A stretch of DNA of 64,000 bases from an uncultured Bacteroidia bacterium. Lineage in GTDB: Bacteria; Bacteroidota; Bacteroidia; Bacteroidales; UBA932. The stretch lies in the NCBI GenBank assembly GCA_902792815.1, contig CADBAY010000015.1, forward strand, positions 1 to 64,000, in the 5' to 3' direction. Positions 26,425 through 64,000 of the stretch are shown in pieces; the first letter of the stretch is position 1; each line of letters begins with the position of its first letter. Under the pieces are notes generated by a model. The model was not told the DNA's origin. It searched no databases and saw nothing but the letters and a program-made list of their open reading frames with translations. The position numbers and the translations under genes are program-made.

Positions 26425-26460
26425 GCGGGCGGCATCCAAAGGCCGCCCGCTTGTTTTTTT
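26425..26460 (+). terminator. Terminator after the repeat-lipoprotein operon
   Basis: GCGGGCGGC (26425-26433) pairs perfectly with GCCGCCCGC (26442-26450) and is followed by TTGTTTTTTT. It ends the plus-strand operon immediately before the convergent truB stop codon. Confidence 0.92.
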
Positions 26461-27271
26461 ATCCCAGCAATTCCAGGGCTGAATCAAGCGAGAGCATATC
26501 AGCCTCGCAGTAGCCTCCGTTGCGGGTGCGCCGGAGCGACCCAAGGAACGCTCCGCTGCCAAGGGCTTCGCCAAGGTCGCGGGCGAGGGCGCGGATATAG
26601 GTGCCCTTGGAGCAAGAAATCTTAATGAGGGCATGTCGTAAATCGTATCCTTTAACATCAGCCACTTTAATGCGTCCGCGGCCCTCTGTGGGCTCTACTG
26701 GTTCCGGGGCGTCGAAACTGTTGCTGTACGAGAGCAACTGGAGGTCGTAAATGTTAATCAGGGAAGATTGCAGAATATCCCCAGGGTCGAAAGACTCTCC
26801 CCGGGCAGAGGCCTCACGGAGCAGACGCCGGGCGGTTTCGTAGGCTCTAACTCCGTCTACCGATTTTGCGCTGAAAAGGGGAGCGATTTGCTCCTGCTCA
26901 CCCACGAAAGAGGGGAGTACCGAGAGCAGGCGCTCTTTAGAGACATCCTCCAGGGGACAGGTCCGGTCGATATCCTTTTCGAGGTCATAAGAAGGGGTGG
27001 TTGCTCCGAAGCACACCCCGGCCAGGTATTCCTTGGGGGATGCCTGAAGCTGCTCCGCCTTTCGCGTAGCGGGGCCGATGCACACCAGAAGGATGCCGGT
27101 GGCAAGGGGGTCCAGGGTGCCGGCATGGCCGACCTTGAGGTTCTTCTTGCCGAAGTGCCGGCAGGCCGCCCACTTGATTTTACGGATTACGTCGGCGGAA
27201 GTCCAGCGGTACGGTTTGTCTACCGGCAGCACTATTCCGTCCGGATAATCGGATATATCTTTGGAGAACAT
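26459..27271 (-). CDS. truB: tRNA pseudouridine(55) synthase
   Basis: A 270-aa TruB enzyme that isomerises U55 in the T-loop of tRNAs. The motif GHAGTLDPLATGILL carries the catalytic Asp, followed by KEYLAGVCFG, and the C-terminal half has CSKGTYIRALARDLGEALG. I placed the start at the ATG at 27271 (MFSKDISDYPDG). The open frame extends 19 codons further upstream, but that extension would be encoded by one arm of an intergenic hairpin and is not TruB-like. It is the last gene of the minus-strand group GT2-rpiB-truB. Confidence 0.95.
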   Translation of the reverse strand: MFSKDISDYPDGIVLPVDKPYRWTSADVIRKIKWAACRHFGKKNLKVGHAGTLDPLATGILLVCIGPATRKAEQLQASPKEYLAGVCFGATTPSYDLEKDIDRTCPLEDVSKERLLSVLPSFVGEQEQIAPLFSAKSVDGVRAYETARRLLREASARGESFDPGDILQSSLINIYDLQLLSYSNSFDAPEPVEPTEGRGRIKVADVKGYDLRHALIKISCSKGTYIRALARDLGEALGSGAFLGSLRRTRNGGYCEADMLSLDSALELLG

Positions 27272-27286
27272 TGTGTGTCTGATGTT

Positions 27287-27357
27287 GTGGCGGCAGTATC
27301 TGCTCCGGGAGCCATAAAACTTGGGCAAAAGGCCCCCGGAGCAGATACTGCCGCCAC
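27287..27357. repeat. 23-bp perfect hairpin with conserved loop (copy 1)
   Basis: Positions 27287-27309 and 27335-27357 are perfect reverse complements (23 bp). The 25-nt loop contains CCATAAAAC, then TTGGGC, then AAAAGG. There is no T-run on either side. It fills the spacer between the rpiB stop (7 nt away) and the truB start. The hairpin at 62785-62861 has the same loop core but entirely different arms. Confidence 0.85.
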
Positions 27358-27364
27358 GGAATAC

Positions 27365-27796
27365 TTATCTTACAGGAATCTTTTCGATGCGACGGGCGTG
27401 ACGGCCGCCTTCGAACTCGGTGGCCAGCCACTCGCGGACCATGGAGACGACCATGCGGTAAGATGCGAAGCGGGCCGGCATCACGAGCACGTTGGCGTTG
27501 TTGTGACCCTTGACCAACTTGGCGATAGCCGTGTTCCAGGCGAGGCCGGCGCGTATGCCCTGATGCTTGTTGAGGGTGATGGCCATGCCGTTTCCCGTGC
27601 CGCAGATGGCAATGCCCTTGTCGACCTTGCCGCTCTCGACTGCAAGAGCCAGGGGGTGGGCGAAGTCGGCGTAGTCGCAAGAATCGGTGCTGTCGGTGCC
27701 GAAGTTGACCACCTGATGCCCCTTGCCTTCAAGATACTTGACCAGGCGCTCTTTGTATTCAACGCCCGCGTGGTCGTTGCATATACCTATAATCAT
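27365..27796 (-). CDS. rpiB: Ribose-5-phosphate isomerase B
   Basis: A 143-aa RpiB that interconverts ribose 5-phosphate and ribulose 5-phosphate in the pentose phosphate pathway. Family hallmarks are NDHAG near the N-terminus (usually SDHAG), the catalytic Cys in ICGTGNGMAI, NKHQGIRAGLAW, HNNANVLVMPARF and the C-terminal GGRHARRI. It overlaps the upstream glycosyltransferase gene by 4 nt (ATGA), so the two are translationally coupled. Confidence 0.95.
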   Translation of the reverse strand: MIIGICNDHAGVEYKERLVKYLEGKGHQVVNFGTDSTDSCDYADFAHPLALAVESGKVDKGIAICGTGNGMAITLNKHQGIRAGLAWNTAIAKLVKGHNNANVLVMPARFASYRMVVSMVREWLATEFEGGRHARRIEKIPVR

Positions 27797-31724: not shown

Positions 31725-31751
31725 CTTTTTAACATTTAATCATTTACAACA

Positions 31752-34164: not shown

Positions 34165-34201
34165 TCTAACTCCCCCAAACCGGTAATTCCGGAAGACTTT
34201 T

Positions 34202-34248
34202 TACCCTCCGGAGCCCAGAATTCTTAGGAAAAAGGGCTTCGGAGGGTA
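34202..34248. repeat. 15-bp hairpin, possible third copy of the conserved-loop family
   Basis: TACCCTCCGGAGCCC (34202-34216) pairs with GGGCTTCGGAGGGTA (34234-34248) with one G-T wobble. The loop reads AGAATTCTTAGGAAAAA. Aligned with the hairpins at 27287 and 62785, the positions CCA.AA..C.T.GG.AAA.GG agree. It sits between the DUF4295 gene and ftsY, and its right arm is followed by a T-rich stretch only about 18 nt later, so it may also work as a terminator. Confidence 0.6.
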
Positions 34249-34262
34249 TCGGTTTACCGTAA

Positions 34263-45884: not shown

Positions 45885-46230
45885 GGTCTTATGTGGTTTA
45901 CTCCGTAAATATACAAAAAATAGAAAGAAATAGAGGAAAGGTCCGGGGCTGTTTTTATGCAGGGCAGATTCGGAGCGTCAGCGACCGGGGTGTCTGAGGG
46001 GTGTCCCCTCAGTCCCCTGGGTGCGCAGGGGGATAATTCGGGCTGTTTTTATGCAGGGCATAAAAACAGCCCCGGGACCGGCATCAACGATTGCTGCTAA
46101 ACCCTAGAAACAACGCAGCGCTCGTATCTTCCGGTCCCGGACTATTCAGAAGTCAGCCGCTAAAGCTGCAGCCGGGGGGAAAGTAAGTCGGCAACGGGAC
46201 CGGACCTTGTCCAAAGCCCGTGCCCCGTCA
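45885..46230. other. Repeat-rich intergenic region downstream of gltX
   Basis: 346 nt with no credible ORF on either strand. It holds a TATATTTA -7-like element for the PPC gene (21 nt before its ATG), the three-part repeat described separately, a CTGAGGGG/CCCCTCAG hairpin, and the octamer GGGACCGG at 46074 and 46196, with its complement CCGGTCCC at 46131, spaced about 60 nt. No intrinsic terminator with a T-run follows gltX. Confidence 0.7.
45940..46079. repeat. A-A-A' repeat that can form alternative hairpins
   Basis: GGGCTGTTTTTATGCAGGGCA occurs exactly twice apart from its flanks (21 nt at 45946-45966 and 46040-46060). A complementary arm GCATAAAAACAGCCCC follows at 46058. The second copy makes a 14-bp hairpin with that arm (loop CAGGG). 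The first copy, with flanking GGTCCGG, could pair with the same arm instead, over about 20 bp with one bulge. Confidence 0.75.
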
Positions 46231-47754
46231 TTAACATATAACTAACCGCTCTTCGGCCCTGCGGAAGCGCAAAAGAGCTTCCTCCCGGCCTATGAAACGC
46301 ATTATATCAGCTATTCCGAGTCCGTTGGACGAACCCGTGAGTGCAAGGCGTATGCAGTTCATCACCTTGCCCATCGGCCACTCCTTGGCACGGATATACT
46401 CTTCCATCGCCTGGGCCGAATCAGTTTCCGTAAGCGCCTGCCGCGCCATATCTACATTCTCTTTCTTCCAGAACTTTGAGGCATCTTTCTCGACATATTC
46501 TTCCGGTGCCTTGAACAAGTACCAGGCAATGTCCCAGAAGTCGGAAACGAATGTGGCCCTCTCTTTGATCAGGCCGACTATTTCCTGTACTTTCTCTGCG
46601 GGAGCGTTTACTCCGTTAGAAGAGAGAATGGGCATGAACAGCGAGCAGAGTTCCTCGTCGGAACGCATGCGCAGGTATTCTTTATTAAACCACTTGGCTT
46701 TCTCGGGATTGAATTTCGCTCCCGATTTGCCAACTTTCTCGAGTGAGAAGGCCTCGATGAGTTCCTCCATCGAGAATATCTCCTGCTCGGTTCCGGGGTT
46801 CCATCCCAGCATGGCGAGCAGATTTACAAAAGCGTCGGCGAAATACCCGTCTTCGCGGTAGCCGCGTGACACTTCACCTTCGGGGGAAGTCCATTTGAGC
46901 GGGAACACGGGGAAACCCATCTTGTCGCCGTCACGCTTGCTCAGCTTGCCGTTGCCGACCGGCTTGAGAAGCAGCGGCAGGTGGGCGAACTCGGGCCTCT
47001 CCCAGCCGAATGCTCTGTAAAGCAGGAAGTGCAGGGGGAGAGAGGGGAGCCATTCCTCGCCGCGGATTACGTGGCTGATTTCCATCAGGTGGTCGTCGAC
47101 GATATTTGCCAGGTGATAGGTGGGCAGTTCGTCAGCCCTCTTCCACAGCACTTTGTCGTCGAGGGTGGAAGTGTTGACTTCGATGTGCCCGCGGATAAGG
47201 TCTTCCATCACTACCACCTCGTCGGACGGCATGCGGAAGCGTATCGTCCAGTCGTTGCGCTCGCCCAGCAGGCGCTCTACCTCGTCGCTTCCCATGGTAA
47301 GGGAGTTCCTGAGGGAGCCTCTGGTGGCGGCGTTGTATATGAAGGTCTGACCGGCGGCTTCGGCTTGCGAGCGCGCTGCTTCAAGTTCGGCGGCGGTGTC
47401 GAAGGCATAGTAAGCAAAACCGTCTCTGACCAGCTGTTCGGCGTATTTGCGGTAGATGCCGCGCCGCTGCGACTGCCTGTAGGGAGCGTGAGGATTACGC
47501 TCGTCGGCCTTCTCGGCCAGACGTCCGTCGGGACCGAGGCCCTCGTCGGGCATTATACCGCACCAGCGAAGCGACTCGATGATATACTCTTCCGCTCCGG
47601 GAACGAAACGGTGAGAGTCGGTGTCCTCGATACGGAGGATGAAGTCGCCGCCCCTCTTCTTGGCGAAGAGGTAGTTGTAGAGCGCGGTGCGTACTCCGCC
47701 CATGTGGAGCGGCCCGGTAGGGGATGGGGCGAATCTTACTCTGGTCTTTTTCAT
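46231..47754 (-). CDS. gltX: Glutamyl-tRNA synthetase
   Basis: A 507-aa class I synthetase charging tRNA-Glu. The HIGH-type motif reads PTGPLHMGGVRTAL (HMGG rather than the usual HIGG), RIEDTDSHRFVPGAEEYI follows, and the KMSKS-type loop is KLSKRDGDK. A C-terminal anticodon-binding helical domain completes it. It overlaps the ftsZ stop by 4 nt, making it the last gene of the division cluster, so its translation is coupled to ftsZ. Confidence 0.96.
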   Translation of the reverse strand: MKKTRVRFAPSPTGPLHMGGVRTALYNYLFAKKRGGDFILRIEDTDSHRFVPGAEEYIIESLRWCGIMPDEGLGPDGRLAEKADERNPHAPYRQSQRRGIYRKYAEQLVRDGFAYYAFDTAAELEAARSQAEAAGQTFIYNAATRGSLRNSLTMGSDEVERLLGERNDWTIRFRMPSDEVVVMEDLIRGHIEVNTSTLDDKVLWKRADELPTYHLANIVDDHLMEISHVIRGEEWLPSLPLHFLLYRAFGWERPEFAHLPLLLKPVGNGKLSKRDGDKMGFPVFPLKWTSPEGEVSRGYREDGYFADAFVNLLAMLGWNPGTEQEIFSMEELIEAFSLEKVGKSGAKFNPEKAKWFNKEYLRMRSDEELCSLFMPILSSNGVNAPAEKVQEIVGLIKERATFVSDFWDIAWYLFKAPEEYVEKDASKFWKKENVDMARQALTETDSAQAMEEYIRAKEWPMGKVMNCIRLALTGSSNGLGIADIMRFIGREEALLRFRRAEERLVIC

Positions 47755-62203: not shown

Positions 62204-62653
62204 CTATTTGCGGGAGAGGCTTCTGGCGATAGAAATGAAACTGTCGTTCGTGATGCGTGAGGATTCGAACTCCGCTTTTGCCCAAACTTCCAATTTAAAA
62301 CCAACGCCGAAGAATACCACTTCCTTGGTAATACCTATTGCGTCAAGAAGTTCACGACAGATGGAGATACGTCCCAGTTTGGGATCTGGCTCGACTATGT
62401 CAACGTCCCTCATGAATTCTCTCCAGAACGTGACGTGGTCGGGATTGAAGAAGTCCAGATCTTCTTTGATCTTTTCCGTCTGCCTGGTCCACTCTTCAAA
62501 AGTGTACATCTCCAGGCAGCGGTCATAGATGCTTTTTTTGATTACAAACCTCATATCGCCACCCGACGGCATATCCTTACGGATGGCGGCCGGGAGCACC
62601 AGGCGTCCCTTGTCGTCAATCCTGACAGGATATTTACCGTAAAAAGTGACCAT
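62204..62653 (-). CDS. mraZ: Transcriptional regulator MraZ
   Basis: A 149-aa protein with two tandem AbrB-like MraZ domains. The first has GKYPVRIDDKGRLVLPAAIR and the second KLGRISICRELLDAIGITKEVVFFGVG. MraZ heads the division cluster in most bacteria and represses it by binding repeats near its own promoter. I chose ATG 62653 (MVTFYG) over an upstream in-frame start, since a -7 box lies 21 nt upstream of it. It is followed by rsmH after 11 nt. Confidence 0.95.
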   Translation of the reverse strand: MVTFYGKYPVRIDDKGRLVLPAAIRKDMPSGGDMRFVIKKSIYDRCLEMYTFEEWTRQTEKIKEDLDFFNPDHVTFWREFMRDVDIVEPDPKLGRISICRELLDAIGITKEVVFFGVGFKLEVWAKAEFESSRITNDSFISIARSLSRK

Positions 62654-62784: not shown

Positions 62785-62861
62785 GCTGCAGAATAGCCAT
62801 CTCCCCCGGGGTCCATAAAACATTGGAAAAGGGCCCCGGGGGGAGATGGCTATTCTGCAGC
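62785..62861. repeat. 23-bp perfect hairpin with conserved loop (copy 2)
   Basis: Positions 62785-62807 and 62839-62861 are perfect reverse complements (23 bp). The 31-nt loop adds a GGGG/CCCC pair inside and contains CCATAAAACATTGG followed by AAAAGG, nearly the same core as the hairpin at 27287. It lies 53 nt past the rpoN stop, with no T-run on the minus strand. Confidence 0.85.
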
Positions 62862-62914: not shown

Positions 62915-64000
62915 CTAGATTTCCTTACGCCAGCGGGCGAGCGGTATGCCGAGCTGGCTGCGGTACTTGGCTATGGTGCGGCGGGCAACGTTGTAGCCGC
63001 GGCGTGACATTTCAACTACAAGCTGCTCGTCGGTAAGAGGCTTTTTCTTATCTTCAGAATCGACGCATTCTTGCAGGACTTTCTTCAGCTCTCGGGTCGA
63101 AACCTCCTCGCCCTCGCTGTTTTCCATTCCTTCGGAGAAGAAGTACTTGAGGGGGAATATGCCGAAGTGGGTCTCGATGAACTTGCTGTTGACGACGCGG
63201 CTTATGGTAGAGATGTCGAAGCCGGTCTTCTCGGCTATGTCTTTGAGTACCATCGGCTTAAGGTTGCTCTCGTCGCCGTCGATAAAATAATCGTGCTGGT
63301 ATTCGAGTATGGCCCGCATGGTCTTGCTGAGGGTATTCTGCCTCTGCTTGAGCGCCTCTACGAACCACTTGGCCGAGTCGAGTTTCTGCTTTACGAAAGC
63401 AGCGGCCTCTTTCTGGGACTTCTCCGAGGAACCCTTGGCGTCGATGAGCAAGTCAGCGTATTTCTTGTTGACCCTGATTTCGGGAACGTTGAACCGGGGC
63501 ATGGTGAAATCCAGCACTCCGTCGTGCTCGTCCAGTATGAAGTCTGGGACTATCTGCTGCGACTGGTCGTCGTACGAGTCGTCGATCTGCCCGCCGGGCG
63601 AGGGATTGAGCTTGACTATCTTTGCGAACGCCGCCTTGAGCTGGTCTTCGGTTATGCCCAGGCGCGTGCATATTTTCTGGAAATGCTTGTTGGAGAAGTC
63701 CTGGAAGCACTCGTCGATAATGCGGATTGCTGTCTGGACTTCTTCCGTGGGACGGAGCGAGCGCAGCTGCAGAAGCAGGCACTCCTGCAGGTTCCGGGCG
63801 CCTACGCCTACCGGCTCGAATTCCTGCACCACGCGGAGCATTTGCTCCACTTCTTCAGGGGTGGCCTCGATGTTGGCCCTGAAAGCCAGGTCGTCAACAA
63901 GCGTATCGATATCGCGGCGCAGATAGCCGTCGTCGTCGAGGCTGCCGATAATGAATGATCCTATTTCCTGCTGGCGGGGAGTAAGGTTGCGGAAACCAAG
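62915..64000 (-). CDS. rpoN: RNA polymerase sigma-54 factor, C-terminal part
   Basis: The gene runs off the right edge; about 361 C-terminal residues are visible. At 64000 the frame reads through NLTPRQQEIGSFIIGSLDDDGYLRRD (core-binding domain), GVGARNLQECLLLQL and KLNPSPGGQIDDSYDD. It then shows the helix-turn-helix region STISRVVNSKFIETHFGIFPLKYFFSEG and the diagnostic RpoN box ARRTIAKYRSQLGIP near the end. Sigma-54 directs transcription from -24/-12 promoters with an AAA+ activator; none is encoded in this window. Confidence 0.96.
   Translation of the reverse strand, partial: LGFRNLTPRQQEIGSFIIGSLDDDGYLRRDIDTLVDDLAFRANIEATPEEVEQMLRVVQEFEPVGVGARNLQECLLLQLRSLRPTEEVQTAIRIIDECFQDFSNKHFQKICTRLGITEDQLKAAFAKIVKLNPSPGGQIDDSYDDQSQQIVPDFILDEHDGVLDFTMPRFNVPEIRVNKKYADLLIDAKGSSEKSQKEAAAFVKQKLDSAKWFVEALKQRQNTLSKTMRAILEYQHDYFIDGDESNLKPMVLKDIAEKTGFDISTISRVVNSKFIETHFGIFPLKYFFSEGMENSEGEEVSTRELKKVLQECVDSEDKKKPLTDEQLVVEMSRRGYNVARRTIAKYRSQLGIPLARWRKEI

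Follow-up and report, generated by a model that had tools for sequence, protein, structure and literature searches.

The window analysed here, a 64,000-nucleotide stretch of DNA from an uncultured Bacteroidales bacterium, carries two long intergenic hairpins. Hairpin 1 (27287..27357, + strand) is located between the minus-strand genes rpiB (27365..27796; PF02502), its upstream neighbour, and truB (26459..27271; PF01509; start codon set by eye), its downstream neighbour. Hairpin 2 (62785..62861, + strand) is likewise flanked by minus-strand genes, with rpoN (sigma-54; 62915..64000) upstream and mraZ (62204..62653; PF02381, MraZ) downstream. The rpoN gene continues past the window end; a domain scan of 62915-63850 detected PF04552 and PF04963, and the rpoN of locus L215 has 467 codons. 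An inverted-repeat scan of the window returned 21 inverted repeats, of which these two were the strongest, at the coordinates given by the initial annotation. The 23 uninterrupted pairs per hairpin that it reported were also found, and the helix extends further in both: past a mismatch in hairpin 1 (27-nt arms, 96%) and past a one-base bulge, placed by eye, in hairpin 2 (30-nt arms, 93% ungapped). Each hairpin contains the common loop CCATAAAAC...AAAAGG described earlier, which in hairpin 1 lies in the CCATAAAAC sense on the + strand. Including its CC/GG borders, the conserved loop is CCATAAAACTTGGGCAAAAGG in hairpin 1 (27312..27332, + strand) and CCATAAAACATTGGAAAAGG in hairpin 2 (62813..62832, + strand). 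Both hairpins lie just past a minus-strand stop codon, 7 bases after that of rpiB and 53 bases after that of rpoN. No T-run follows either of them in the rpiB or rpoN direction, so they are not ordinary intrinsic terminators, as the initial annotation had argued.

The two hairpins are part of a dispersed family, and a search for further copies found many more. The loop pattern CCATAAAACN{3,8}AAAAGG had nine exact matches in genome G000, to which the window belongs, compared to none for the reversed control. These nine matches are eight sites, because the rows on contigs C9 and C32 represent one site at two contig ends, and all eight fold into long hairpins. A chance origin of the shared loop pattern in G000 is excluded. 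Allowing up to three mismatches to CCATAAAACNTGGGAAAAGG gave 14 rows in G000 and 0 in the control. A covariance model, R1, was built from 14 copies, 13 from G000 and one from G011. At E values up to 0.5 it matched 22 rows in G000, which reduce to 20 places (the C9 and C32 rows again represent one site, and both strands of the C29 site were matched); a separate hairpin scan found clear arms in 18 of the 20. Hairpins 1 and 2 scored 72.1 and 74.3 bits, respectively, both being among the 14 sequences used to build the covariance model that scored them. The window also holds a probable decayed third member (34193..34255, + strand; 33.4 bits, E 3.6e-5), with 15-nt arms TACCCTCCGGAGCCC/GGGCTTCGGAGGGTA (93%) and a diverged 17-nt loop.

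R1 matched 12 of 121 genus genomes at E values up to 0.01, with 42 rows in G128, 20 in G000, 16 in G071, 8 in G070, 4 in G119, 2 in G121 and 1 in each of six others; the rows of G014, G081, G097, G110, G121 and G127 are model matches counted without inspection. The exact loop pattern, searched in 61 genomes, was matched in eight besides G000, approximately the rate of the reversed control, and among the matches in those eight genomes only that in G011 (L017) forms a hairpin of this kind. The hairpins constitute a lineage-specific family of short (about 60-80 bp) palindromic DNA elements, present in dozens of copies in a genus of uncultured Bacteroidales. By rpiB, the nearest named records are MAGs of Bacteroidales or Bacteroidia, many from ruminant gut. 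Phage carriage was examined with the single exact pattern CCCATAAAACNTGGGAAAAGGG, which gave 0 matches in viral_contigs. The idea that the arms are copies of other genes was discarded, as 14 arms had no 13-base match outside their own sites in 26 loci and the window.

To describe the anatomy of the element, 78 copies from five genomes were used (G128, 42; G000, 18; G071, 8; G070, 8; G119, 2). The set excludes the third window element, four other hairpins and two contig-end palindromes (L194 and L195). The loop is 16 or 17 nt long in 58 copies and the arms measure 20-31 bp in 69; pairing is perfect in 30 copies and interrupted by a single mismatch in 28. The inner 11 pairs carry 0.26-1.11 bits of column information, with a consensus near CTCCGGGGCCC, and arm positions 15-29 from the loop carry 0.01-0.24 bits. 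No fixed motif was found in the flanks or at the hairpin foot of the 78 copies, and their outer ends share no sequence. The initial annotation considered the arms of the two window hairpins unrelated. This holds for the outer arms, which differ, but not for the arms as a whole, since the consensus is common to the inner ~11 pairs. The same gradient was observed between copies of the same genome (1058 pairs), where mean identity was 0.751 for loops, 0.668 for inner arms and 0.474 for outer arms compared to 0.514, 0.513 and 0.444 for shuffled letters. Outer arms of one genome are thus near random. Among the G128 copies, 24 of 861 pairs had outer arms of identity at least 0.7 compared to 1.3 expected, so inheritance accounts for the arms at least in part. 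The loops of orthologous copies were only moderately alike (mean identity 0.787, 16 pairs), indicating that the loop is not clearly constrained at a given site, and the likeness of loops between copies could also come from recent spread. The identity comparison leaves out the cut copy of L200, and its L171/L200 row uses another L200 hairpin. On contig C10 of G000, two family copies lie side by side with opposite loops. L207 was rejected as the ortholog of the second of these, since it holds a half remnant of that second hairpin together with another hairpin.

The initial annotation held that the loop is constant and that the arms differ yet stay complementary. Across the family, loop and pairing are indeed kept and the outer arms differ. 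In 81 model-aligned rows, 97.1% of 1828 cells were standard pairs; 741 cells had changes on both sides and 16 a one-sided change with a standard pair retained, and slid controls were 38-47% paired. The rows came from searches with a structure model, whose preference for pairing inflates the figure of 97.1%, and several sites entered the alignment on both strands. Stronger evidence for kept pairing came from double changes within sites. Seven ortholog pairs had alignable arms, and their 171 arm pairs (a tally without L196/L220 and without two gapped pairs of L034/window) comprised 144 unchanged pairs, 20 double changes and 7 single changes, where 3.2 double changes would be expected if the two sides changed independently. 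The arms of the closest ortholog pairs were identical (L206/L218) or had one difference (L211/L229), showing that arms are inherited at a site. A single change has made L218 one pair longer than L206. In the deep ortholog pairs of atpG, arms were hardly alignable, so that separate insertions at a hot spot are possible there. Collectively, the arms drift in step at a site, and the differences are mainly between sites. The initial annotation would have given up the family had no further copies existed or had relatives conserved the arms as sequence; many more copies exist, but close orthologs do share arm sequence.

We then considered whether the pairing is kept at the level of RNA or DNA. Hairpins functioning in RNA, as terminators or mRNA 3'-end stabilisers, would keep their pairing by RNA selection. 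REP-like hairpins protect mRNA ends, many family copies lie 0-30 bases past a stop codon, and the rpoN site of G070 holds an ordinary terminator-like hairpin instead of a family copy. Mismatches in the mRNA sense were 12 G-U compared to 24 A-C among 1071 pairs (40 copies with a clear gene direction), numbers that are small. In contrast, a tRNA control gave 26 G-U and 0 A-C among 262 pairs (11 tRNAs of the analysed sequences), although ARAGORN, with which the tRNAs were found, itself favours GU over AC. Terminator-like hairpins of the same loci (51 hairpins) had 9 GU and 8 AC, a control that did not discriminate. A count oriented by the loop gave 29 GU and 26 AC; as loop orientation is uninformative for transcription, the count by gene direction was used. 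The lack of a G-U excess over A-C, unlike in tRNA stems, suggests that pairing is probably kept at the DNA level, and there is moderate evidence that it is not kept through RNA.

The placement of the copies also speaks against selection on RNA. Of 72 placed copies, 19 lie within an ORF, and the ORFs on either side of the others are co-directional (17 and 12), convergent (15) or divergent (9). The ORF calling was crude, and some of the ORFs that hold a copy are certainly spurious, among them one that runs antisense to rpiB-truB of the window. Several copies are in frame within atpG, truA and dnaG, and presence is patchy across genomes. The U-run of an intrinsic terminator is missing from both window copies, and a few other copies have T-rich ends of the outer arm. 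In Rfam 15, neither window hairpin matched a family at gathering score, and nine loci tested gave sub-threshold matches only, mostly of miRNA type; an Rfam identity was thus rejected. Together, the G-U counts, the copies inside ORFs of conserved genes and those between divergent ORFs count against the RNA 3'-end stabiliser, an option of the initial annotation, as the reason for pairing, and we regard functional RNA hairpins as an improbable explanation of the family.

Among relatives there are sites with and without the hairpin, the pattern shown by mobile palindromes. At 31725..31726 the window has no hairpin, and one of the family is present there in relatives G128 (L160) and G071 (L203, where a contig starts). 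At rpiB-truB, one of 33 relatives compared (L034) has the hairpin, the others having a compact junction or other sequence, and a model search of this junction in 80 records matched only L034. G128 lacks a hairpin at this junction and the contig of G070 breaks at the same hairpin. The junction of G071 (L341) and of L032 holds a different palindrome, unrelated to the family, with 19-bp arms (TTTGCTGCTGTCTGCCGAC) and a long inner part, and those of named relatives hold several unrelated short repeats of the types ATTCTTCG...CAGAATGACA, CGTCATTCCCGCG... and CTACTCTGCGG... The rpiB-truB junction appears to be a hot spot for insertions. At rpoN-mraZ, the arm of hairpin 2 recurs in G071 where a contig begins, and a family hairpin is absent from G128. 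The truA gene is free of the hairpin in G128 and G134, and G128 also lacks it at the L223 and L222 sites. We infer mobility from these absences in relatives; precise loss could account for single sites.

Like Rickettsia palindromic elements (RPE), the family is found in frame within conserved genes. Four genomes (G000, G070, G071 and G128) have an in-frame copy in atpG. Two of them, G000 and G070, also have one in dnaG and one in truA, and G071 carries a different copy near dnaG. The protein families of genes with inserts were checked for the G000 proteins and for truA of G070. A stretch of ~65 bp in the right flank of L226 (query 1690-1755) has many further occurrences in G070, G071 and G128, and is perhaps a repeated protein motif of a gene family.

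Comparison of orthologous copies revealed that the loop can turn around within its site. Of 14 loci with a hairpin in at least two species, four had the loop in opposite orientations with respect to the flanking genes, as read by hand from hairpin and flank alignments, namely rpiB-truB (window/L034), truA (L210/L227), L198/L209 and L196/L220; L222/L392 is a probable fifth. In truA, the two loop orientations encode different peptides in the same protein. A hairpin outside the family (L218:2688-2730 and L206:2678-2721) is also inverted between G000 and G070 (95% over 44 bases, reverse), suggesting that inversion of palindromes may be general in these genomes.

Taken together, we think it reasonably probable that the family is a REP/RPE-like mobile palindrome in which template switching keeps the arms matched by copying one from the other. 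The palindromic mobile element and the template-switch products listed as separate options by the initial annotation both fit, as halves of one explanation. An enzyme would spread the element by recognising its loop and inner arms, which are what the copies have in common. Once inserted, the palindrome would fold into a hairpin in single-stranded DNA, where synthesis could copy one arm from the other. Template switching would erase each arm mutation or carry it to both arms, so that the arms would drift yet stay complementary. The same copying process, or exchange between the arms, may occasionally invert the loop. For RNA genes, it has been proposed that template switching can both generate and correct hairpins and can turn loops around (PMC8794818). 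Under this mechanism, pairing would not have to benefit the cell through RNA.

A different division of labour between element and host is also conceivable. The mobile core could be the loop with about 11-14 inner pairs, the outer arms being made on site by inverted template-switch copying that extends outward. The heritable part would then be only the ~16-nt loop and a short GC-rich inner stem, with long arms copied in inverted form from host DNA at each landing site. The low information at arm positions 15 to 29 from the loop and the near-random outer arms of copies in one genome, where loops are not random (0.751 compared to 0.514), are consistent with this, as is the extra pair of L218 relative to L206. 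The left arm of L225 includes the stop codon of the upstream gene, and the G070 ortholog of that gene ends at the same codon without a hairpin. We examined nine sites that lack the full hairpin for sequence matching an outer arm (18 tests, uncorrected), and three already held one: hairpin 1 against G128 (p 0.017), L225 against G070 (p 0.023) and L223 against G070 (0 of 1000 shuffles). No significant match was found at the other six (L228, L171, L160, hairpin 2, L216 and L217a). The L228 site in G070, read by eye as a case of a pre-existing arm, received no support from the test. The suggestion of the initial annotation that the element copies its target in inverted form is thus ambiguous, with three sites for it, uncorrected, and six without an arm match. 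A deletion remnant would look alike, so arms made on site stay hypothetical; the three matches may just as well be what is left of deleted hairpins, and a deletion between CCCGG repeats would fit L223/G070. Among the G128 copies, some have common outer arms (the 24 of 861 pairs above). We consider both site-made arms and a heritable part confined to loop and inner stem unlikely. Were the arms made on site, each copy would be a perfect locus-specific palindrome with a constant loop, even inside essential genes.

No mobilising gene was identified and no flanking motif was found. In REP/RAYT systems, hairpins are moved by a Y1 (IS200-like) transposase, and Y1_Tnp matches are present in 89 of 121 genus genomes (E values up to 0.001), including G000, G070, G071 and G128. 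However, no hairpin with the family loop was present within the stretches read at 41 Y1 loci, some of them overlapping; these include 2 of 3 matches in G000, 3 of 5 in G070 and 1 of 4 in G071. In G128, which has the most family copies, the single Y1 match is weak (E 6e-4) and lies outside the loci read. REP/RAYT elements have a conserved stem and a foot of the GTAG or CGTC type, whereas the family has no fixed motif at the hairpin foot and a near-random outer stem. RAYT genes are common, but the 41 loci read are not flanked by family hairpins, and movement of the family by a Y1 transposase of the genus appears very improbable. Many of the Y1/RAYT loci (L234-L274) have REP-like, mostly short-loop hairpins of their own with other stems, for example TGGGAGGGTTACCGTCAAA in L265 and L267, and the rest have no hairpin. 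The conserved terminal inverted repeats of MITEs are likewise missing, the outer ends having no common sequence.

Palindromes may also arise when an assembly or chimera artefact folds a contig back on itself. Two contig ends of G071, L194 (C42) and L195 (C205), have arms of 128 and 171 bp around a family loop and are most likely assembly fold-back artefacts. Several hairpins are located at contig ends. Strong hairpins seem to break contigs, as at C9/C32, C22 and C31 of G000 and C32 of G070. For the family as a whole, an artefact has almost no probability: most of the 78 copies are contig-internal with unrelated flanks, orthologs recur in separately assembled genomes, and reading frames are kept in conserved genes.

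The mobile palindrome with copied arms was compared with known systems. RPEs are outlined as elements of ~150 bp that each encode a conserved peptide and occur between genes and in frame (PMC10969869). The family similarly consists of short palindromes between genes and in frame inside genes, but in it the loop is constant and the outer arms vary per site, and with them much of the encoded peptide sequence. REPs, by the account in PMC3733652, measure 20-40 bp, have stems of 5-13 bp and a GTAG or CGTC end, and fall into families by stem and loop. As with REPs and BIMEs, there are many hairpin repeats per genome, mostly intergenic, with one tandem opposite-loop pair in the family; its stems, unlike those outlined for REPs, are 20-31 bp long in 69 of 78 copies, variable and without an end motif. 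Palindromes of Volvox organelles, described in summary as selfish and often nested, usually have a TAAA/TTTA loop and stems of 4-37 nt (PMC2670323). A constant loop with variable stems is common to both, but the Volvox palindromes are summarised as elements of organelle DNA with 3-5 nt loops. The repetitive hairpin-forming elements of sponge mitochondria are also outlined as dispersed hairpins, many of them intergenic, in which, oppositely, stems are conserved and loops vary (PMC2800124). Perfect inverted repeats of up to 284 bp lie inside functional coding genes of Nematomorpha mitochondria (PMC6649704); inverted repeats within coding genes are thus shared, and a dispersed family of constant loop is not mentioned in the abstract. 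Template-switch mutations in RNA genes, as summarised in PMC8794818, share the proposed mechanism, with multi-base compensatory changes and loop inversions, and concern functional RNA genes, as opposed to the dispersed and apparently mobile repeat described here. Among titles and the opening parts of abstracts, a scope that leaves out most subscription papers, no bacterial palindrome family that combines a constant loop with variable arms was found.

The family offers a natural record of palindrome evolution in bacterial chromosomes, spanning many sites and species, where the flanking genes allow paired changes, loop inversions, gains and losses to be dated. If arm-to-arm copying does occur, compensatory changes, usually read as proof of a functional RNA, could arise from DNA replication alone. 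The in-frame palindromes in atpG, dnaG and truA indicate that conserved proteins gain segments from apparently mobile DNA.

The window contains a further cluster of inverted repeats (45943-46140), composed of CCGGGGCTGTTTTTATGC pairs and including, at 46072-46140, a repeat with a 17-nt loop. The cluster had no Rfam match. It is located downstream of a minus-strand ORF (46231-47754), and its stretch CCCGGGACCGGCATC...GCTAAACCCTAGAAACA also adjoins a similar gene in G128 (L184).
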